Source: an uncultured Eubacteriales bacterium (lineage in GTDB: Bacteria > Bacillota_A > Clostridia > Saccharofermentanales > Saccharofermentanaceae). Taken from it: 10,357 nucleotides of DNA. Under the pieces are notes generated by a model that searched no databases, was not told the DNA's origin, and was given only the letters and a program-made list of their open reading frames with translations. This document shows, in pieces, positions 1 through 10,357 of this stretch. The stretch covers positions 1 through 10,357 of the forward strand of contig OMQY01000043.1 of NCBI GenBank assembly GCA_900313405.1, read 5' to 3'. The stretch's first letter is position 1. The number at the start of each line of letters is the position of its first letter. The position numbers were made by a program, and so were the translations under genes.

Positions 1-2526
1 CCTCGACGCTCTCGGGTTGACCTCGATGACGTATATCTTGTCGTCCTTGACGATGTACTGGATATTGACGATGCCCGTGGAATTGAGCCCGTCACACAGA
101 GCCTTGGTCGTGTCGATGAGCTTCTTGCTCATATCATCGAAAATATGCTTCGCCGGATACACTGCTATCGAGTCTCCGGAATGGATCCCAGCCCTCTCGA
201 TATGCTCCATAATGCCGGGGATCAGGACATCGTGTCCGTCATAGATCGCGTCAACCTCGATCTCCCTGCCCTGGATGTATTTGTCGATGAGCACCGGATT
301 CTCGATGCCGTGAGACAGTATGATGTTCATATATTCCCTGACATCATCTTCGCCGAATGCGATCGTCATATTCTGACCGCCGAGAACATAAGAGGGTCTC
401 AGAAGTACCGGGTATCCGAGGGTCTCAGCTGCCGACAGGGCTTCTTCAAGAGTCAATACCGAAGATCCCTTGGGGCGTGCTATATCGAGCCTCTCGAGCA
501 GTTCATCGAATCTCTCGCGGTCCTCGGCCATGTCGATCGAATCAGCTGACGTTCCGATGATGTTGATATTGTTCTCGGACAAGGTCTTGGTGAGCTTGAT
601 CGCAGTCTGCCCGCCAAAGGCGACTACGACTCCCAGGGGGTTCTCCTGCCTGATGATATCCATTACCGACTCCGCGTCCAAAGGCTCGAAGTAGAGTCGG
701 TCTCCGGTGTCGAAGTCGGTCGATACAGTCTCGGGGTTATTGTTGATTATTACTACACGATATCCCTGCTCGCGCAGCGCATTGACACAGTGGACGGCCG
801 CGTAGTCGAACTCGATACCCTGACCTATCCTGATGGGTCCGGAGCCGATAACTATTATCGTCCCGGTGTTCGCGTCTTCAGAAGCATCAGCCTCGTTAAC
901 GCCTCCTTCAGCAGCGGTGTTATACGCACTGTAGAAATAAGGTGTAGCAGCCGCGAACTCTCCGGCACATGTATCGACCATGCGGAACACCGGATCGACC
1001 TTGAAGGATGCGTCGACCGGTTTGCCGGTCAGAGCTGTTATCTTCTTATCCGTGAAGCCGAATCTCTTGGCCTGAAGGTATGTCTCAAAGCTGATATCTC
1101 CTGCGCCCTTGAGCTTGCCTTCCATGTCGACCAGCTTACGGATCTTGGTCAGGAACCACATGTCGATCTTCGTGGCCTCGTGGATGGCCTCGGGTGTGAC
1201 GCCCAGGCTCATTGCTTTCGCTATATAAAACAGACGAAGGTCGCTCGGCTTGCTGTACCCGGCTACTGCCTCTGCGCGGTCAATATCCTTGAATGAAGGG
1301 ATGAGCAGTGACTCAGCCGATATCTCGGCTCCCCTTACCGCCTTCATAAGACCGCCTTCAAACGAGTCGGCGATCGCCATGACTTCACCCGTCGCTTTCA
1401 TCTGCGTGCCGAGGTCTCTCTTGGCATAAACGAATTTATCGAAAGGCCACTTCGGGAACTTTACCGCGACATAGTCAAGCGCCGGTTCGAACGAAGCGTA
1501 TGTATTGCCCGTTACTGCGTTGCGGATCTCATCGAGCCTGTAGCCGAGTGCGATCTTAGTCGCTACCTTTGCGATAGGATATCCGGTTGCTTTCGATGCG
1601 AGCGCTGACGATCTTGACACACGGGGATTGACTTCGATAACGGCATAATTAAATGTGTCCGGATCGAGCGCGAACTGGCAGTTACAACCGCCTTCTACTC
1701 CGAGTGCGTCGATGATGTCGAGCGCAGCGGTACGGAGCATCTGATATTCCTTGTCTGACAGAGTCACTGCCGGAGCGATAACGATGGAGTCACCCGTGTG
1801 TACTCCTACCGGGTCAAGGTTCTCCATAGAGCAGACCGTGATCTTGTTGCCCGCTTTATCGCGAATTACTTCGAACTCGATCTCTTTCCATCCGGCGACG
1901 CTCTTCTCGATCAGGACCTGCGTAATAGGCGACATGGACAGACCCGTGCTCGCTGTCTCAAACAGTTCCTCGGGAGTCGTCGCGATACCGCCGCCGCTGC
2001 CGCCTAAGGTAAAGGCCGGTCTTACGATAACCGGATATCCGATCTCTTCGGCAAAGTCGAGCGCGCTCTGAGCGTCGTTAACGACTGTTGACGGGATGCA
2101 GGGCTGCCCGATCGACTCCATCGTATCCTTGAAGAGCTGTCTGTCTTCCGACTTATCGATACATTCGGGCGAGGATCCCAGAAGCCTCACACCGTTCTTA
2201 TCGAGGAATCCCTCACGTGCGAGCTGCATGCAGAGAGTCAGCGCCGTTTGTCCGCCGAGTCCTGACAGGATGGCATCAGGTCTCTCGGTCTCGATTATCC
2301 TCTTTACGGTTGTCAGTGTTAGCGGTTCGATATAGATCTTATCCGCCATCTTATTGTCGGTCATTATGGTAGCAGGATTGCTGTTGACGAGAACGGTCTC
2401 GATACCGTCTTCCTTCAGCGCTCTGCATGCCTGCGTTCCGGCGTAATCGAACTCCGCCGCCTGACCTATAACGATCGGACCCGAGCCGATCACCATTACC
2501 TTACGTATGTATTTATCGAGCGGCAT
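1..2526 (-). CDS. carB: Carbamoyl-phosphate synthetase large subunit, 3'-truncated by window edge
   Basis: Synthetase subunit of carbamoyl-phosphate synthetase. It makes carboxyphosphate from bicarbonate and ATP, joins it to ammonia delivered by CarA, and phosphorylates carbamate with a second ATP. The frame is open from ATG 2526 to base 1, giving 842 residues of a family usually near 1060-1075. Seen: an N-terminal [20 protein letters not shown] motif (residues 11-30), the first ATP-grasp with [12 protein letters not shown] (169-180), and metal-binding [11 protein letters not shown] (298-308). The oligomerisation region is about 400-550. The duplicated synthetase half opens with [17 protein letters not shown] (560-576), continues with RPSYVLGG (710-717), and is cut right after its EVNPRASR (835-842). 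The rest of this half and the C-terminal allosteric (MGS-like) domain lie outside. The start is fixed by GGGAG eight bases upstream. It begins one base after the carA stop, so the two are probably translationally coupled. No frameshift or missing motif is visible in the part present. Confidence 0.97.
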
Positions 2527-2527
2527 C

Positions 2528-3604
2528 TTAAGTTCTCCCTTCTTCCATCATTCTTATGAACCTGTCGAAAAGTTCCTCGCTGTCCTTCGGTCCTCCGCAA
2601 GCCTCCGGGTGAAACTGCACTGAGATCGAAGGTTCGCCCGCATATCGGAGTCCTTCATTCGTATTATCGTTAACGTTGATGAACCACGGCTGTGCCTTAT
2701 CCCTGTCAACCGACTCGTCGACGACTGCATAACCGTGATTCTGTGAAGTGATATAGATCCTGCCGGTATTAATGTCCTTTACCGGATGGTTGGCTCCTCT
2801 GTGACCGTATTTGAGTTTTGACGTTCCGAAGCCGTGTGCCAGTGCAAGTAGCTGATGCCCGAGGCAGATTCCCATTGTCGGGATCTTATCGTTCGCGATC
2901 TCTCTAAGTGTACTGATCGCCTCGGTGTTGTCCTCCGGATCTCCCGGACCGTTACTCAGGAACAGGCCGTCGGGGCCCAGTTCCCTGATCCTCGCGGCAT
3001 CCGTATCATGCGGCAGGAGAGTTACACGGCATCCTCTCTTCAGAAGACACCTGATGATGTTACGCTTGATGCCGTAATCCATTACGGCTACATCAAACTT
3101 TTTCTCGCCTTCGCTCTCGAAGACCTTCTCTTCTTTTACCGACACTTCCCCGACAGGTCTGATGATCCTGTATGCCTTTATCTTCTCTATATCGGCATGT
3201 GAAGGATCGTCACAGATCATGCCGTTCATCGTGCCATGGTCTCTGAGCGTCTTTGTAAGCGCTCTCGTATCTATCCCTTTAAGTCCGGGGATATTCTGTT
3301 CCCTGAGGAATGCCTCAAGGTTGCTCTCACACCTGAAGTTGGATGGGCCGTCGCAGATCTCTCTTACGATATAGGCCGAGACATATGAGGCACCGCCCTC
3401 CATATCGGGTGTTATCATTCCGTAATTACCTATGAGCGGGAATGTCTGAAGTACAGCCTGACCCTTGTAGCTCGGATCTGTCAGCGTCTCGATATAACCT
3501 GTCATAGAAGTCGTAAATACTATCTCGGCGATCACTTCGCCCTCAGCGCCGAAGGCCTCACCTTCAAAGACTTTTCCGTTCTCAAGAACAAGATATCTCT
3601 TCAT
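2528..3604 (-). CDS. carA: Carbamoyl-phosphate synthetase small (glutaminase) subunit
   Basis: Glutamine amidotransferase subunit: it hydrolyses glutamine and channels ammonia to CarB. It has 358 residues, within or slightly below the usual family length. The N-terminal CarA-specific domain spans about 1-150, with [20 protein letters not shown] (30-49), the region DYGIK (176-180) opening the class I glutamine amidotransferase domain, LSNGPGDP (216-223), the nucleophile in GICLGHQ (Cys247), the SQNHGYAV loop (287-294), and the rest of the triad in VQFHPEA (His332, Glu334). All catalytic residues are present, so it should be active. The ATG at 3604 lies inside the 3' end of gltD in another frame (23-base overlap) and is preceded by GGAG with a seven-base spacer. 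That leaves no room for a separate carA leader, so expression probably depends on the glt transcript unless a promoter lies inside gltD. carB follows after one base. Confidence 0.98.
2535..2539 (-). promoter_or_regulatory. Ribosome binding site of carB inside carA
   Basis: GGGAG eight bases before ATG 2526, within the last codons of carA. Supports the ATG chosen for carB and coupled synthesis of the two subunits. Confidence 0.82.
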
Positions 3605-5078
3605 TTTTATTCTCCATCAGATACTTATCGATCTCTTCTGCCGCATCTCTTCCTTCACGGAGTCCCCATACTACGAGAGACTGTCCTCTCCTCATATCTC
3701 CTGCGGCGAACACGCCTTCCTCTGAAGTCATATGGGTTCCGTGTGTCTCAACGTTTGATCTTCCGTCAGTCTCGACCCCGAAGGCGTCGACAACGTATTT
3801 CTGCGGTCCCAGGAAACCCGCGGCGATAAGTACGAGCTGGGCGGGGATGATCTCTTCGGTCCCTTCCTGCGGGACCATCTTCATCCTGCCTGTCGCCTCG
3901 TCTTTCTCGCCCTTGAGCTTGATGGTCTCAATGCCGTCGAGCTTTCCCTGATCGTCCTTGATGAATCTCTTTACAGTCGTCGTATAGACTCTGGGGTCCT
4001 TGCCGAATACCGCGATCGCTTCCTCCTGGCCGTAATCGGTCTTGAGGATCCTCGGCCACTCCGGCCAGGGATTGTTCTCCGCTCTCGTAACGGGCGGAGG
4101 CGGCATCATCTCGAGCTGTGTCACGGACTTGGCACCGTGACGGATACATGTACCGACACAGTCATTACCCGTATCACCGCCGCCTATAACTACAACGTCC
4201 TTATACTTGGCACTGATGTAGTTGCCGTCGGACATGTTGGATGCTATGAGCGACTTGGTCGTTGCCTTCAGGAAATCGACTGCGAAGTATATACCTTCCG
4301 CATCTCTTCCCTCTGCATTGATGTCCCTCGGGTTGCCGGCGCCGCAGCAGAGAACGACGGCGTCATAATCTGCCTTAAGCTGATCGTATGTAATATCGAC
4401 TCCGATATTGACCGAAGTCCTGAATGAGATGCCCTCCTGCTTCAGGATGTCTATCCTTCTTGCAATTACGGACTTCTCGAGCTTCATGTTCGGAATACCG
4501 TACATCAGAAGTCCTCCGGGGCGATCCTCCTTCTCGAAAACGGTTACCTCGTGACCTCTTATGTTGAGCCAGTAGGCCGTGGACAGTCCGGACGGGCCGG
4601 AGCCGATGACCGCGACCTTTTTGCCTGTCCTTCTCTTTGGAGGGTGAGGGACCATTGAGCCTGTCTCATAGGCCTTTTCGATAATGGCATACTCATTCTC
4701 CTTAGTCGTTACGGGCTGGTCGTTGAGGCCGCATACACACGCCTTCTCGCAGAGGGCGGGGCAGACTCTCGAAGTGAATTCCGGGAAAGCGTTGGTCGAC
4801 ATCAGCCTTCCCAATGCCTCATCCCAGAAGCCCTTGTAGACCAGATCGTTCCAGTCGGGGCAGAGATTGTTCAAGGGGCATCCGGCTGCCATTCCGCAGA
4901 TCACTTTGCCGTACTGGCAGAAAGGAACGCCGCAGTTCATGCATCTTGCGCCCTGACGTCTTCTCTCCTCTTCATCCGCCGGCGTATGGAACTCCCTGTA
5001 GGTCTTGATCCTCTCGAGGGGGTCCACGCTGACGTTATCAACTCTTTTATATTCCATGAATCCTGTAGGTTTACCCAT
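3582..5078 (-). CDS. gltD: Glutamate synthase (NADPH) small subunit
   Basis: FAD- and iron-sulfur-containing subunit that takes electrons from NADPH and passes them to the FMN site of GltB. It has 498 residues from the ATG at 5078, normal for the family. The N-terminal Cys-rich region carries RCMNCGVPFC (Cys46, 49, 54), Cys61, Cys67, Cys73, then RVCPALCEKACVCG (Cys106, 110, 114, 116), the ligands expected for two [4Fe-4S] clusters. An FAD-binding Rossmann motif is VAVIGSGPSG (155-164). The NADPH-binding motif is VVVIGGGDTGND (295-306). The C-terminal FAD contact is GVFAAGDMRRGQSLVVWGL (455-473). The frame stays open upstream to 5162, but that would overlap gltB by 74 bases. The ATG at 5078 has a strong GAGGTGA five bases ahead and begins the family-typical GKPTGFMEYKR, so it is preferred. 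The 3' end overlaps carA. Confidence 0.97.
   Translation of the reverse strand: MGKPTGFMEYKRVDNVSVDPLERIKTYREFHTPADEEERRRQGARCMNCGVPFCQYGKVICGMAAGCPLNNLCPDWNDLVYKGFWDEALGRLMSTNAFPEFTSRVCPALCEKACVCGLNDQPVTTKENEYAIIEKAYETGSMVPHPPKRRTGKKVAVIGSGPSGLSTAYWLNIRGHEVTVFEKEDRPGGLLMYGIPNMKLEKSVIARRIDILKQEGISFRTSVNIGVDITYDQLKADYDAVVLCCGAGNPRDINAEGRDAEGIYFAVDFLKATTKSLIASNMSDGNYISAKYKDVVVIGGGDTGNDCVGTCIRHGAKSVTQLEMMPPPPVTRAENNPWPEWPRILKTDYGQEEAIAVFGKDPRVYTTTVKRFIKDDQGKLDGIETIKLKGEKDEATGRMKMVPQEGTEEIIPAQLVLIAAGFLGPQKYVVDAFGVETDGRSNVETHGTHMTSEEGVFAAGDMRRGQSLVVWGLREGRDAAEEIDKYLMENKNEEISCS
3612..3615 (-). promoter_or_regulatory. Ribosome binding site of carA inside gltD
   Basis: GGAG seven bases before ATG 3604, lying within the coding sequence of the last residues of GltD. 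Ribosomes finishing gltD cross this site, so carA translation is probably coupled to gltD. Confidence 0.8.
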
Positions 5079-5083
5079 GATCG

Positions 5084-5090
5084 TCACCTC
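5084..5090 (-). promoter_or_regulatory. Ribosome binding site of gltD
   Basis: GAGGTGA five bases before ATG 5078. It shares the last two bases of the gltB stop codon TGA (5091-5089), which suggests coupled translation. It decides against the longer open frame reaching 5162. Confidence 0.88.
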
Positions 5091-8000
5091 AATCCTTCGA
5101 TACGGTATTCTCGTGGAATGCCATGATCTTTGCTTCGTCTTCAGAGACACCCTCTGCCACATGTTCCCTTATGGAGTTCATCATCCGCTTGTAGTCGTGC
5201 GGAATGACTTTCTTGAACTTCGGGATGTATTCACCGATGCTGTCGAGGATCTTCTTTGCCAGAGGCGACCCTGTTCTTCTGAAGTGTTCTTCAATGAGTT
5301 CCGTAAGCTGCTTCTCGTCAGCAGGATCCTTTACCTTCTCGAAGCCTACGAGCGACTTGTTGAGCTTAGTATAGAGACTGTTATCCTCATCGAGGACATA
5401 GGCGATGCCGCCGCTCATGCCGGCTGCAAAGTTCTTGCCGACAGGGCCTAAGACTACAGCCACACCGCCGGTCATGTATTCGCAGCCGTGGTCGCCCAGA
5501 CCTTCAACTACGACCTTCGCACCGGAGTTCCTGACGCAGAATCGCTCGCCTGCGATACCGTTGATGAAGGCCTTACCGGAGGTTGCGCCGAAGAGGGCTA
5601 CATTACCTGCGATGATATTGTCTTCCGCATCGAAAAGGCTCTCCTTCGGGGGATATACTGCGATGATGCCGCCCGATAAGCCCTTGCCCATATAGTCGTT
5701 GGCGTCACCTTCGAGGTTGATCGTAAGACCGTTCGGGATGAAGGCACCGAAGCTCTGTCCGCCTGCTCCCTTACAGTTGACCGTGAAGGTATCGTCGTTC
5801 AGGCTGTCACCGTATCTCTTCGTGATCTCAGAACCGAAAAGCGTTCCGAGTGCCCTGTCAAGATTACGCACTTCGATCTCGATCGTCTTCTCTTCTCCGC
5901 TCTCCAGAGCCTCCTTCATCTGAGGGATTATCACTCTGCTGTCGATCGTCTGCTCGAGCTTAAAGTCGTAAGCATCTTCGGCAACGTAATGCTTCTTAAT
6001 GGTATTATCTCCCGCATAAGGATCGCTGATTATCTCCGACAGGTCGACGCGGCCTTCTGTCACACTGTCGCGGATCTTAAGAAGATCTGATCTTCCGACC
6101 AGCTCATCCACTGTCCTGATACCGAGCTTAGCCATATATTCGCGCATCTGATTCGCGACGAAGGTCATGAAGTTGATAACGTATTCCGGCTTGCCTGCGA
6201 ATCTCTTACGCAGCTCAGGATTCTGAGTGGCAACACCTACGGGGCATGTGTCGAGATTACATACTCTCATCATGACGCATCCCATCGTGACCAGCGGAGC
6301 CGTCGCGAACCCGAATTCCTCGGCGCCCAGCATCGCCGCCGTAACGACATCCTTACCCGTCAGCAGTTTACCGTCAGTCTCAAGTCTTACTCTCGACCTC
6401 AGACCGTTCTGTATAAGCGTCCTGTGAGTCTCCGCAAGACCTATCTCCCAGGGAAGTCCCGCATGGTGTATGGAACTTGCCGGGGCAGCACCCGTACCGC
6501 CGTCATAACCCGAGATCAGGATGACCCTGGCACCGGCCTTGGCTACACCTGCGGCTATCGTTCCGACGCCGGACTCTGATACGAGCTTTACGGATATCCT
6601 CGCGCTGCTGTTCGCATTCTGAAGATCGTAGATCAGCTGAGCCAGATCCTCGATCGAATAGATATCATGATGAGGCGGCGGTGAGATCAATGCGACACCC
6701 GGTGTTGAATGCCTTGTCTTGGCTATCCAGGGATAGACCTTACCGGCAGGAAGATGTCCGCCCTCGCCCGGCTTAGCACCCTGTGCCATCTTGATCTGTA
6801 TCTCGTTGGCGGACAGAAGGTAACCTGAAGTTACACCGAAGCGTCCGGATGCAACCTGCTTGATGGCAGAGCAGCGATCCTCGGCCTGTCCCTTTGTCAT
6901 GATCCTCTCGGGATCTTCTCCGCCTTCACCGCTGTTGGACTTTCCTCCGATGCGGTTCATGGCGATAGCCATACACTCATGAGCTTCCTGCGAGATGGAA
7001 CCGTAGGACATAGCACCCGTCTTGAAGCGCTTCATGATCTCTTCGGCACTCTCTACCTCATCGAGCGGGATCTCTTTCCCCTCGGGATAATCGAAATCGA
7101 GCTGACTTCTCAAAGTGATCTGCCTGTCCTCCGAATCGATCTTGCCGGTAAACTGCTTATAGAGATCGTAGCTGCCTGTCCTTGTCGCCAGCTGCAGGAG
7201 GTGGATCGTCTCGGGATCATAAAGGTGCTTCTCCTTGCCGCTCCTGGACTTATGCCAACCCTTAACGGCAAGCTGGTTCCCTGTAGGATTCCTGTACTCG
7301 TCGTAAGCATCTTCGTGGAGCTTCTTTGTCCTCTTCTCCATCTCGGCCAGACCGATACCGCCGACTCTGCTCACCGTATCCGGGAAGTACTTATCCATTA
7401 CTTCCCTGCTGATACCGAGCGCCTCGAAGACCTTGGCACCCTGATATGACTGAAGTGTGGATATACCCATCTTGGCCGCGATCTTAACGATGCCGGTCAC
7501 GAGAGCCGATATGTAAGCGTCGCATGCCTGCGTATATTCCTTGTCGATGACGCCGCGATGTATAAGATCGTGGATCGTATCAAGTGCGAGATAAGGGTTT
7601 ATCGCGCTGGCACCGAAGCCCAGGAGCGTCGCGAAGTGATGGACCTCAGTCGGCTCGCCGGTCTCGATGATGATCGATATGGCGGTGTTCATCCTTGTCC
7701 TTACGAGATATGTCTCGAGTGCGGCAACCGCGAGGAGCGACGGGATAGCCATATGTTCGCCGTCAACGCCGCGGTCCGTAAGGATCAAGACTGTCGCACC
7801 TTCTTCATGAGCCTTGTCCGTCTGCTCGTAAAGCCTCTCCAAGGCTGTCTCGAGACTCTCGTCCTTGGTATAGAGCATCGAGATGTCGGCTGTCTTAAGG
7901 CCATCCAGCTCACTGTCTCTGATCTTCATCATGTCGAGGTTAGTGAGGATCGGATTGTGGATCTTAAGAACACGGCAGTTCTCTTCTTTGTCCTCAAGGA

Positions 8001-9666
8001 TATTGCCGGCTATACCGAGATATACCGTAGTATCCGTGATCATGGCTTCTCTTATCGAATCGAGAGGCGGGTTTGTGACCTGTGCGAACTTCTGCTTGAA
8101 GTAATCGAACAGTACCGGATCCTCATTCGACAGAGGGGGCACCGGAACATCGGTACCCATGGCAGCCGTCGGCTCACCGCCGTTCAGGCACATTGGGATG
8201 ATCTCATTATTCAGATTTCCGTACGTGTAGCCGAAAGCCTTCTGAAGAGTATAGAGTTCTTCCCCTCTTATGCTTATCGGTCTCTTGTTCTTTATCTTAA
8301 GGTCATGTAGCTCGACGAGCATATGGTCGAGCCACTCGCCGTAGGGCTGTCTTCTTACGTATTCCTTCTTGATCTCCTCATCGTCGATCAGCCTGCCTGC
8401 TACTGTGTCGGCCAGGAGCATCTTGCCGGGATGGAGCCTGTCCTTCCTGATAACAGTGGACTGATCGATGCCCTCGAGCGCTCCGACCTCGGATGAGAGG
8501 ATAAGATATCCGTCATTGGTGATGTAATATCTGGAGGGTCTCAGTCCGTTTCTGTCCAGGACCGCACCGACCGTGTCGCCGTCCGTAAAGATGATGGAAG
8601 CAGGGCCGTCCCATGGTTCCATCATGGTCGCATAGTACTGATAGAAAGCCTTCTTCTCTCTGTCCATGGTATCCGACTTCTGCCAGGGCTCCGGGATCGT
8701 CATCATGATCGCCAGCGGGAGCGGTACTCCTGCCATCGTCATGAATTCGATCGTATTGTCGAGTCTTGCCGAATCGGAACCTGTCACGTCGAGCATCGGA
8801 TAGATGTCATCGTAACGCCCGTCGAAAAGCTCGCTCCTGAAGATGTTTTCGCGGGAGAGCATCTTGTTCATATTACCCGTGATCGTATTGATCTCGCCGT
8901 TATGTACGAGCATCCTGTAAGGGTGCGACCTCTGCCACGTCGGGTTAGTATTAGTCGAGAATCTGGAGTGCACGATGCCGAACGCCGACTCATATCTGCC
9001 GCTACACAAGTCCTCATAGAAAGTCCTCAGCTGCCCTACCAGGAACATGCCCTTATAGACGATCGTCCTGCACGAACATGAGCACACATAAGTATCATCA
9101 TTATTCTTCTCGAAAAGCTTCCTTGCAAAATACAGCAGCCTGTCAAAATCCGCATCCGTCCTGCATTCATCCGGGCGTCCGACAAAAGCCTGATAGATAT
9201 TCGGCATGCTCTCTTTTGCCCTCTGACCCAGAACGCTCTCATTGACCGGCACCTTACGCCAGCCGAGGAATGTCAGACCTTCCTTCTTTACGCTATTCTC
9301 GAAGACTTCCTGCGCCTTCTTGAGCTCACTCTCTCCCTGCGGGAAAAAGAACATTCCGATACCGTAGCTTCTGGCACCGCCTATGCTGATATCAGTCCCC
9401 TGAAGCACTTCGGAAAAGAAAGAATGCGATATCTGAAGCAGTATGCCGACGCCGTCACCGGTCTGCCCGGACGCGTCCTTGCCGGCTCTGTGTTCCAGAG
9501 TCTCGACGATCTTCAGCGCATCATCCGTAACCTTTGCCGACCCTTTGCCGTCGATCTTGATCACCGCACCGATACCGCAGTTCTCGTGTTCGTTCATAGG
9601 GTCGTAAAGACCATTGGCAGGGAATGCATCCTGCACCCTGTAGTTGTTTACTCTATGATTTTCCAT
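5089..9666 (-). CDS. gltB: Glutamate synthase (NADPH) large subunit
   Basis: Large subunit of GOGAT: glutamine plus 2-oxoglutarate gives two glutamates, using electrons from GltD. It has 1525 residues from ATG 9666, as expected for the bacterial alpha subunit. Domains in order: a short propeptide (1-29) ending before ENCGIGAV, where Cys30 is the expected N-terminal nucleophile of the class II amidotransferase after self-cleavage; amidotransferase to about 420, with HSRFSTNTNP and HNGEINTITGN; a central domain, about 470-770; and an FMN/2-oxoglutarate barrel, about 800-1180, with AKPGEGGHLPAGKV, SPPPHHDIYSIEDL and SGYDGGTGA. The [3Fe-4S] motif is C-x5-C-x4-C (Cys1130, 1136, 1141). A C-terminal GXGXG beta-helix spans about 1270-1440. 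A TTG at 9690 in frame is rejected as start: it sits in the terminator U-tract and upstream of the AGGAG at 9675-9679. gltD follows after 10 bases. Confidence 0.98.
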   Translation of the reverse strand: MENHRVNNYRVQDAFPANGLYDPMNEHENCGIGAVIKIDGKGSAKVTDDALKIVETLEHRAGKDASGQTGDGVGILLQISHSFFSEVLQGTDISIGGARSYGIGMFFFPQGESELKKAQEVFENSVKKEGLTFLGWRKVPVNESVLGQRAKESMPNIYQAFVGRPDECRTDADFDRLLYFARKLFEKNNDDTYVCSCSCRTIVYKGMFLVGQLRTFYEDLCSGRYESAFGIVHSRFSTNTNPTWQRSHPYRMLVHNGEINTITGNMNKMLSRENIFRSELFDGRYDDIYPMLDVTGSDSARLDNTIEFMTMAGVPLPLAIMMTIPEPWQKSDTMDREKKAFYQYYATMMEPWDGPASIIFTDGDTVGAVLDRNGLRPSRYYITNDGYLILSSEVGALEGIDQSTVIRKDRLHPGKMLLADTVAGRLIDDEEIKKEYVRRQPYGEWLDHMLVELHDLKIKNKRPISIRGEELYTLQKAFGYTYGNLNNEIIPMCLNGGEPTAAMGTDVPVPPLSNEDPVLFDYFKQKFAQVTNPPLDSIREAMITDTTVYLGIAGNILEDKEENCRVLKIHNPILTNLDMMKIRDSELDGLKTADISMLYTKDESLETALERLYEQTDKAHEEGATVLILTDRGVDGEHMAIPSLLAVAALETYLVRTRMNTAISIIIETGEPTEVHHFATLLGFGASAINPYLALDTIHDLIHRGVIDKEYTQACDAYISALVTGIVKIAAKMGISTLQSYQGAKVFEALGISREVMDKYFPDTVSRVGGIGLAEMEKRTKKLHEDAYDEYRNPTGNQLAVKGWHKSRSGKEKHLYDPETIHLLQLATRTGSYDLYKQFTGKIDSEDRQITLRSQLDFDYPEGKEIPLDEVESAEEIMKRFKTGAMSYGSISQEAHECMAIAMNRIGGKSNSGEGGEDPERIMTKGQAEDRCSAIKQVASGRFGVTSGYLLSANEIQIKMAQGAKPGEGGHLPAGKVYPWIAKTRHSTPGVALISPPPHHDIYSIEDLAQLIYDLQNANSSARISVKLVSESGVGTIAAGVAKAGARVILISGYDGGTGAAPASSIHHAGLPWEIGLAETHRTLIQNGLRSRVRLETDGKLLTGKDVVTAAMLGAEEFGFATAPLVTMGCVMMRVCNLDTCPVGVATQNPELRKRFAGKPEYVINFMTFVANQMREYMAKLGIRTVDELVGRSDLLKIRDSVTEGRVDLSEIISDPYAGDNTIKKHYVAEDAYDFKLEQTIDSRVIIPQMKEALESGEEKTIEIEVRNLDRALGTLFGSEITKRYGDSLNDDTFTVNCKGAGGQSFGAFIPNGLTINLEGDANDYMGKGLSGGIIAVYPPKESLFDAEDNIIAGNVALFGATSGKAFINGIAGERFCVRNSGAKVVVEGLGDHGCEYMTGGVAVVLGPVGKNFAAGMSGGIAYVLDEDNSLYTKLNKSLVGFEKVKDPADEKQLTELIEEHFRRTGSPLAKKILDSIGEYIPKFKKVIPHDYKRMMNSIREHVAEGVSEDEAKIMAFHENTVSKD

Positions 9667-9674
9667 AACACCCG

Positions 9675-9679
9675 CTCCT
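9675..9679 (-). promoter_or_regulatory. Ribosome binding site of gltB
   Basis: AGGAG eight bases before ATG 9666. It fixes that ATG as the start in place of the upstream in-frame TTG at 9690. It lies just past the leader terminator, outside its stem. Confidence 0.9.
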
Positions 9680-9688
9680 AATCTTTGC

Positions 9689-9739
9689 AAAAATAAAAGC
9701 GCTTATCGAATGCGGTGACCCGCATCAATAAGCGCCTTT
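9689..9739 (-). terminator. Intrinsic terminator in the gltB leader (probable attenuator)
   Basis: On the minus strand, the arm at 9739-9725 (AAAGGCGCTTATTGA) pairs with 9709-9695 (TCGATAAGCGCTTTT), and inside it TGCGG (9724-9720) pairs with CCGCA (9715-9711) around the loop GTCA (9719-9716). This gives a 20-pair stem with one bulged T (9710) and two G-U pairs, followed by a T-rich run (TTTTATTTTT ending at 9689). The T-rich run fits only minus-strand transcription. The terminator sits after the promoter and ends 10 bases before the gltB Shine-Dalgarno, so any transcript from this gap must pass through it. It could also block read-through from the upstream regulator gene. Confidence 0.88.
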
Positions 9740-9745
9740 GCTTAC
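9728..9745 (-). promoter_or_regulatory. Alternative leader hairpin that competes with the terminator (candidate antiterminator)
   Basis: GTAAGC (9745-9740) can pair with GCTTAT (9733-9728) around the six-base loop AAAGGC (9739-9734): five Watson-Crick pairs plus one G-U. The loop and 3' arm are the same bases that form the 5' arm of the terminator, so the two folds exclude each other. The loop has A at position 1 and G at position 4, the signature of RNA hairpins bound by ANTAR-domain antiterminators. Those targets normally have two such hairpins, and no second one was found upstream. The fold is seen; the role is inferred. Unaided, this hairpin is much weaker than the terminator, so a stabilising protein would be needed. 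Confidence 0.4.
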
Positions 9746-9763
9746 AAATATTCAGTTGGTGAA

Positions 9764-9792
9764 TTTATACTCCTATTTTGAAGTCGTGTCAA
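9764..9792 (-). promoter_or_regulatory. Predicted housekeeping promoter of the glt-car operon
   Basis: Reading the minus strand, TTGACA (9792-9787) is followed after exactly 17 bases by TATAAA (9769-9764): a perfect -35 box and a one-mismatch -10 box at ideal spacing for the main sigma factor. Transcription would start near 9757, giving a leader of about 90 bases before the gltB ATG. It lies downstream of the regulator's stop codon and is the only good promoter seen in the gap. Confidence 0.8.
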
Positions 9793-9801
9793 TAGGTCTG
9801 T

Positions 9802-9815
9802 TATCGAAAACGATA
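9802..9815. repeat. Short inverted repeat upstream of the glt-car promoter
   Basis: TATCG-AAAA-CGATA: two five-base arms around a four-base spacer, lying 10 bases upstream of the -35 box and 10 bases past the regulator's stop codon. No T-run follows in the minus-strand direction, so it is not a terminator for the upstream gene. It could be an operator for an activator or repressor, or chance: arms this short are weak evidence. Confidence 0.3.
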
Positions 9816-9825
9816 CGGAACCTGA

Positions 9826-10357
9826 TCACTTTTTGACTACTCTGTACAGTCCGTGACGGTTACAGTATGCGTAGATATATCTGACATGAGATGTCCGGAA
9901 TCTGGTCTCGGCATTGCTCTCAGGGTACATTTTCGATAACTGTATGCCGGAATCCGATACGGCCGCGATAAACGAGATATAGTGATCCTTAGTCATCGGA
10001 TGATCTACCGAGACATAGTATTCATCCTCTATCTTCTCAACGTTGATCCGGTGCTCCTCATCCGGTTCCTCAGCTTCCATCGGCGGCAGGGTTATACCGC
10101 AGCACATGACCAGGGCTTCACCCACAGATGCGATAACATTACCGCATACCGGACACACGCAGAATCTGCTCTTATACATATTGGAAGATCTGTTGGTATT
10201 GGTTATGCAGTTGCCCGATAGCAGTTCGACTACCGATATCCCGAGTTCCCCTGCAAGCGGTTCGATCAGGCTGATATCAGGGTAACCCTTTCCCGTCTCC
10301 CATTTGCTGACTGCCTTACTGCTCACAAAGAGTCTCTCAGCCAGCTGCTCCTGTGTC
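9826..10357 (-). CDS. XRE-type helix-turn-helix protein with desulfoferrodoxin-like C-terminal domain, 5'-truncated
   Basis: 176 residues are visible; the true start lies beyond the right edge. The frame is open to base 10357, and the GTG at 10326 is an internal Val of the HTH. Visible residues 1-49 (TQEQLAERL...SKAVSKWETG...PDIS...LGISVVELLSG) are a typical XRE/Cro HTH. Residues 66-93 resemble a desulforedoxin-like Fe(Cys)4 site: CPVC (68-71) and CC (85-86). Residues 98-176 match the superoxide-reductase (neelaredoxin) fold: EEH (His102), DHPMTKDHY (His119, His125) and YCNRH (Cys165, His168), the complete His4-Cys set. The lysine usually before the first His (EKH) is Glu101 here. Role is inferred: a DNA-binding regulator that senses superoxide, iron or redox state. 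Enzymatic superoxide reduction is possible but less certain. It lies upstream of gltB, separated by 159 bases containing a new promoter, so it is probably a separate transcription unit. Confidence 0.88.
   Translation of the reverse strand, partial: TQEQLAERLFVSSKAVSKWETGKGYPDISLIEPLAGELGISVVELLSGNCITNTNRSSNMYKSRFCVCPVCGNVIASVGEALVMCCGITLPPMEAEEPDEEHRINVEKIEDEYYVSVDHPMTKDHYISFIAAVSDSGIQLSKMYPESNAETRFRTSHVRYIYAYCNRHGLYRVVKK

Follow-up and report, generated by a model that had tools for sequence, protein, structure and literature searches.

Antiterminator proteins of the ANTAR type act on RNA targets that, in the established definition, comprise two hexaloops (PMC3369931), with A at position 1 and G at position 4 of the hexaloop as their signature (A1/G4; PMC3369931). 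As described for Enterococcus faecalis, induction is ablated by removal of the first hexaloop (PMC3369931). The 2022 structure paper on EutV reduces the binding motif to one hexaloop, states that both hexaloops must nevertheless be contacted, by a dimer in turn, to prevent termination, and calls for more bioinformatic and experimental work on single hexaloops (PMC8934654). The single hexaloops that it describes are those of the EutX RNA and, by its reference, of Mycobacterium tuberculosis leaders; the same paper gives AmiR of Pseudomonas aeruginosa as a protein with a pseudo-receiver (PMC8934654). A connection with nitrogen assimilation also appears in this literature. NitR of Clostridium saccharobutylicum, an ANTAR protein, is said to antiterminate and to induce the GS/GOGAT genes under nitrogen limitation (PMC6316151), and in Desulfotomaculum reducens ANTAR substrates were linked to glutamate synthase genes (PMC3369931).

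The locus studied here is the leader of gltB in a stretch of 10,357 nucleotides from an uncultured Eubacteriales bacterium; the window hereafter means that whole stretch. Comparison with other genomes makes it very probable that transcription is attenuated in this leader under ANTAR control, by way of a single hexaloop.

Promoter, terminator and hairpin before gltB

The features of the locus are collected in the table. The promoter, read from the window sequence as TTGACA-17-TATAAA (minus strand, 9792-9764, with 17 nt between the -35 and -10 boxes), is the near-consensus promoter that an earlier note on this DNA had proposed, and it is the sole site in the window, on either strand, that matches at 11 or more of 12 positions. 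Shuffled windows (n = 100) held on average 0.1 sites of this quality, and 10 of the 100 held any. Its spacing predicts a transcription start at about 9757. A mechanical scan did not list the promoter because that scan requires T at the last -10 position; the terminator stem was likewise missing from it. The stem agrees with what had been claimed, namely 20 pairs about 20 bases into the transcript: it sets in at 9739, about 19 nt from the predicted start, and joins 9739-9720 to 9715-9695 with one bulge and a GUCA loop (-29.1 kcal/mol). For 9662-9757 the predicted folding energy is -37.9 kcal/mol, where shuffles give -21.2 (sd 2.9), a z of -5.7. As the note had also read, the T-rich tail, which runs to 9689, ends just before the ribosome binding site of gltB (9679-9675), whose ATG stands at 9666 on the minus strand.

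Features of the window (position 1 is its first letter)
Feature	Position	Strand	Basis or remark
-35 box TTGACA	9787..9792	-	sequence and promoter scan
-10 box TATAAA	9764..9769	-	sequence and promoter scan
Putative antiterminator hairpin GUAAGC[AAAGGC]GCUUAU (P2)	9728..9745	-	A1/G4 ANTAR-type hexaloop
Hexaloop AAAGGC	9734..9739	-	A1 at 9739, G4 at 9736
Intrinsic terminator stem, 20 pairs	9695..9739	-	folding; mutually exclusive with antiterminator hairpin
T-tract of terminator	9689..9697	-	sequence; first three bases also close stem
gltB ribosome binding site AGGAG	9675..9679	-	read from sequence
gltB, glutamate synthase large subunit	5089..9666	-	first gene behind switch
gltD, glutamate synthase small subunit	3582..5078	-	start chosen by me
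carA, carbamoyl phosphate synthase small subunit	2528..3604	-	overlaps gltD
carB, carbamoyl phosphate synthase large subunit	1..2526	-	cut by window end

Downstream, gltD follows gltB after 10 nt, gltD and carA overlap, and 1 nt separates carA from carB (with the starts as I read them). Control of all four genes, raised by the earlier note, is likely from this tight spacing and from the fact that carA elsewhere has a leader of the same type of its own (L150, where gene identity was checked; L152 and L176, with the same first residues).

The 5' arm of the terminator is shared with a hexaloop hairpin, and the two folds exclude each other. This hairpin has the properties of an ANTAR target as regards its A1/G4 hexaloop, its overlap with an intrinsic terminator and its 6 pairs under the loop, where at least 3 are required. 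A second hexaloop hairpin upstream (P1), which a dual target requires, is absent from the window leader given the predicted start, and the leader agrees only with the wider, single-hexaloop definition of binding given in PMC8934654. When prefixes of increasing length were folded, the hexaloop hairpin came first, and the terminator was the minimum-energy fold from 58 nt on. Of 100 shuffled windows, 11 contained somewhere a hairpin with an A1/G4 hexaloop that overlaps a terminator of -20 kcal/mol or lower; the hairpin of the window is thus, taken alone, within chance, and its weight comes from other genomes.

Two observations concern the region upstream. The preceding gene (9826-10357, minus strand) combines an HTH_3 domain with a desulfoferrodoxin-like C-terminal domain, a pairing that seemed unusual, and an inverted repeat, TATCG-TTTT-CGATA (9815-9802, minus strand), lies just upstream of the -35 box as a possible regulator site. 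In another assembly, a locus (L118, G007:C17:4908-5571) matches window positions 9694-10357 at 640 of 664 bases (96% identity) over the upstream gene, promoter and leader, divergence setting in within the T-tract. The first half of the repeat is altered there, the -10 box differs, and the leader is followed by a convergent POR-domain gene instead of gltB; an orphan leader, a rearrangement and a contig that strayed into that assembly are all conceivable.

Leaders of the same type in other genomes

Fifty-five further loci and the window provided 56 gltB leaders of at most 300 nt each, in which hairpins of at least 4 bp with a hexaloop and an overlap with a terminator were sought for all 16 letter combinations at loop positions 1 and 4. 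The A1/G4 class was found in 36 of the 56 leaders, and each of the 15 other classes, under the same rule, in 0-3. Among the 20 leaders with no match, six belong to a gltB leader of another kind (L006-L010, L055), five seem by eye to lie close behind another gene (L028, L036, L038, L040, L041), for L029 and L041 the upstream sequence is short, in L047 and L051 there is, by eye, a 3-bp version of the hairpin, and six (L035, L039, L042, L050, L052, L054) offer no explanation for its absence. In eight genomes whose gltB leaders resemble that of the window (L001-L005, L011-L013; grouped by leader likeness, without a tree, and hereafter called the window group), gltB is preceded by a promoter of 10/12 or 11/12 with a 17-nt spacer, a co-located stem and a T-tract. 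Conservation of stem and T-tract in relatives and covariation in the stem had been named in the earlier note as checks on its reading; stem and T-tract are kept in these eight genomes, and the terminator has 33 double-change cells across 21 aligned leaders of gltB, glnA and GS-III genes.

Two further points emerged from these leaders. Those of L007-L010 and L055 have a strong promoter, a common TTTTCAGGGA stretch and no obvious terminator, and the genomes of L007, L008 and L010 encode an ANTAR protein despite the divergent leader. In L026, L032, L033 and L053, two modules, each with a single hexaloop and a terminator, apparently stand in tandem before gltB (by eye).

In the same 21-leader alignment, the closing C-G pair of the hairpin and loop positions A1, A2 and G4 are invariant, the pairs after the closing C-G alternate among A-U, G-C and C-G, and 4 of the 5 hairpin pairs are altered on both sides. 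The hairpin contains 28 double-change cells, where shuffles give 9.2 and slid registers no more than 8; the double changes are partly due to selection, since the scan that supplied the leaders requires pairing. Its score is 0.669 (at most 0.244 in slid registers); the number of pairs with a double change (272/500) and the number of pair types (468/500) showed no excess over shuffles.

A covariance model in which the terminator is paired and the 5' arm of the hairpin is left unpaired was run on the 58 genomes of the family of G003, a search that is only partly independent because letter preferences for the two arms are built into the model. Matches with E 0.01 or better were obtained in 31 of these genomes and none in the other 27. 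They number 67 in all, 13 in training genomes and 54 outside, and an A1/G4 hairpin of at least 4 bp was present in 43 of the 47 outside matches examined, a shift of the loop by up to two bases from its expected position being allowed. Some of them have arm pairs that no training leader has: AAAC/GUUU in L169, L171, L172 and L175, and AGAC/GUCU in L173. One match (L132) looks near-identical to training leaders and adds little; L139, L148, L154 and L156 have no 4-bp hairpin and give no support to the ANTAR reading.

The genes behind the model sites include gltB, glnA, GS-III, LL-diaminopimelate aminotransferase (dapL), asparagine synthase B (asnB), amidophosphoribosyltransferase (purF), carA and citrate synthase, part of the names, those of glnA and gltB orthologues included, being read by eye from the first residues. 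Cut fragments that score below the curated cut-off add glutamate dehydrogenase, NAD synthase and a gamma-glutamyl hydrolase-like protein. Within the window group, extra model sites with the hairpin precede two aminotransferase genes (L120, L121; their only match was to a general aminotransferase family, and the name dapL comes from their resemblance to L135). Two more stand before the genes of a RelA/SpoT-domain protein (E 0.0027) and of a protein with a PPDK_N domain (E 0.05). Judged from these annotations, the leader-bearing genes together look like a glutamine and nitrogen regulon. As a separate observation, the single-hexaloop leaders before the RelA/SpoT-domain gene (L122, 1563-2549) and the PPDK_N-domain gene (L125, 3-1457) hint that alarmone or carbon metabolism is connected with this control.

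One hexaloop or two, and other readings of the leader

To my knowledge, the ANTAR attenuators shown experimentally all have two hexaloops, and two are also found in several gltB leaders of Lachnospiraceae type (L020, L027, L031, L034, L037, L044, L045). The leader could accordingly be a canonical dual target whose transcript starts further upstream and includes a hidden first hexaloop, a reading made improbable by the position of the promoters. In the window group, the promoters match at 9/12 to 11/12, and the distance from the end of the predicted -10 box to the loop is 23-26 nt in gltB leaders (9 leaders), 21-28 nt in GS-III leaders (5 leaders) and as little as 10-12 nt in glnA leaders (8 leaders), where the transcript should begin practically at the hairpin. 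Distances were then counted in three leader sets, from which 13 leaders without a promoter of at least 9/12 were dropped, the third set also excluding the GS-III sites with a 3-bp stem (L123, L128). A first A1/G4 hairpin of at least 4 bp was found in none of the 57 leaders (17 + 27 + 13) with a distance of 10-32 nt between the end of the predicted -10 box and the loop, one of which (L135) has a first hairpin of 3 bp. Six leaders at 36-37 nt had no first hairpin of that size; at 41 nt or more, 10 of 16 leaders had one of at least 4 bp, although one of those ten (L033) looks by eye more like two single modules in tandem. Where the predicted promoter is close, a second hexaloop upstream is thus absent, the 10-32 nt after the -10 box leaving no room for a first. 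Placement of the second hexaloop in the apex of the terminator was likewise rejected, none of 60 rows (some leaders entered twice) having an A1/G4 apex.

It is still less probable that the stem simply ends transcription of the upstream HTH/desulfoferrodoxin-like gene, or that it is a leaky terminator with no regulator. That gene does end at 9826 on the same strand as gltB, the hairpin of a single window could arise by chance, as noted above, and read-through is itself a prediction; however, a strong promoter separates the gene from the stem, the leader stays before gltB in the genomes of L001, L003, L004 and L005 even though the best match to the upstream gene lies elsewhere, and A1/G4 is singled out among 16 loop classes. 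Use of the hairpin by another RNA-binding protein or by a metabolite-sensing RNA appears very improbable indeed. A bare hairpin of 4-6 bp could suit other proteins and the nitrogen signal is itself deduced, but the loop letters fit the ANTAR signature, an ANTAR gene lies beside a leader-bearing glnA, and the leader is short for an aptamer. The window has no Rfam match at gathering score, on which ground a riboswitch or T-box was rejected; the earlier note had considered the leader before the stem too short for a known glutamine riboswitch or T-box. Attenuation before gltB, as that note proposed, is thus supported as the best reading, and of the two switches that it named, a protein and a small competing fold, both seem to be involved, as an ANTAR-type hexaloop hairpin that is presumably held by an ANTAR protein.

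The ANTAR protein, a possible mechanism and known systems

The Pfam ANTAR domain was found above cut-off in all 24 relatives' genomes searched and in none of 14 controls, and the genome of the window presumably encodes such a protein too. Presence of the gene does not discriminate between leaders, because all 24 genomes have it, including 7 with a non-matching gltB leader (L007, L008, L010, L039, L047, L050, L052). A glutamine synthetase gene shares the 3-kb locus in 21 of 26 ANTAR loci, from 20 of the 24 genomes. The gene order in the window group is glnA, ANTAR, CTP-synthase-like gene (by eye). In the relatives, the glnA beside the ANTAR gene is itself preceded by a leader of this type, and a GS-III site diverges from glnA in 5 of the 8 window-group genomes, two more having a 3-bp stem (L123, L128).

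With a two-residue offset of my own to the numbering of PMC8934654, the residues aligned to EutV Lys149, Glu160 and Met172 are invariant in 20 ANTAR proteins; the position of Tyr164 is His in 20 of 20, and L062 has Ile at that of Arg142. Where EutV has the phosphorylated Asp54, all eight window-group proteins have Asn, and only 2 of the 20 have Asp; switching by a kinase is therefore improbable.

The following scheme would fit the single-hexaloop attenuator. By default, the nascent RNA would fold into the terminator and transcription would stop before gltB. Under nitrogen (glutamine) shortage, an ANTAR protein would take hold of the hexaloop hairpin close to the transcript's 5' end; the likeliest candidate is the equivalent of the ANTAR protein whose gene neighbours glnA in relatives. 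Because the hairpin uses the 5' arm of the terminator, the held hairpin would block the latter, and the gltB-gltD-carA-carB transcript would continue.

A bolder version, in which a lone hexaloop at the 5' end suffices, a glutamine regulon is built on it, and the acceptor-less ANTAR protein is gated by the neighbouring glutamine synthetase and not by a kinase, is offered tentatively and is rather doubtful as a whole. Its gating step, drawn from gene order and the Asp-to-Asn change, is speculation; it resembles the gating of TnrA by glutamine synthetase in Bacillus, where GlnR is also gated by that enzyme. AmiR, which is gated by AmiC, provides a precedent for the pseudo-receiver, being like the window-group proteins an ANTAR protein whose receiver lacks the phosphorylation residues, and its sequence matches the ANTAR protein of L062 (E 2.7e-07).

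The leaders suggest that glutamine assimilation is controlled at the RNA level across a broad group of gut and rumen bacteria, which are mostly represented here by metagenome assemblies only. Many natural leaders have no room for a second hexaloop, so that the question of whether one hexaloop can act against a terminator becomes directly testable; if a solitary hexaloop did suffice, this would contradict the two-hexaloop dimer view published in PMC8934654. Searches of open-access literature for an attenuator with one hexaloop, or for a glutamine regulon under ANTAR control in Clostridia, gave nothing beyond PMC3369931, PMC8934654 and PMC6316151. ANTAR control of GS/GOGAT genes is already known; what is new, within these searches, is the proposed terminator attenuator with a single hexaloop, together with its regulon.

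Among the known systems, the attenuators of EutV in the eut genes of E. faecalis share with the present leaders the A1/G4 hexaloop, the closing C-G pair and the overlap with a terminator, as well as a receiver-ANTAR protein (PMC3369931, PMC8934654). They differ in that EutV targets, as described there, carry and need two hexaloops where the present leader has one, and in that EutV is phosphorylated on Asp54, the residue replaced in the window group. Hexaloops outside the strict dual arrangement are common to the present leaders, the EutX RNA and the M. tuberculosis leaders; yet, as presented in PMC8934654, EutX is a sequestering RNA and the M. tuberculosis hexaloops lie at ribosome binding sites, and neither is a single-hexaloop terminator attenuator. 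The glutamate synthase targets of D. reducens were found with a dual-hairpin model (PMC3369931), whereas the present leader has a single hairpin. Nitrogen control of the NitR type, as described in PMC6316151, may operate here too: relatives have ANTAR-type leaders before GS/GOGAT genes and an ANTAR gene beside glnA.
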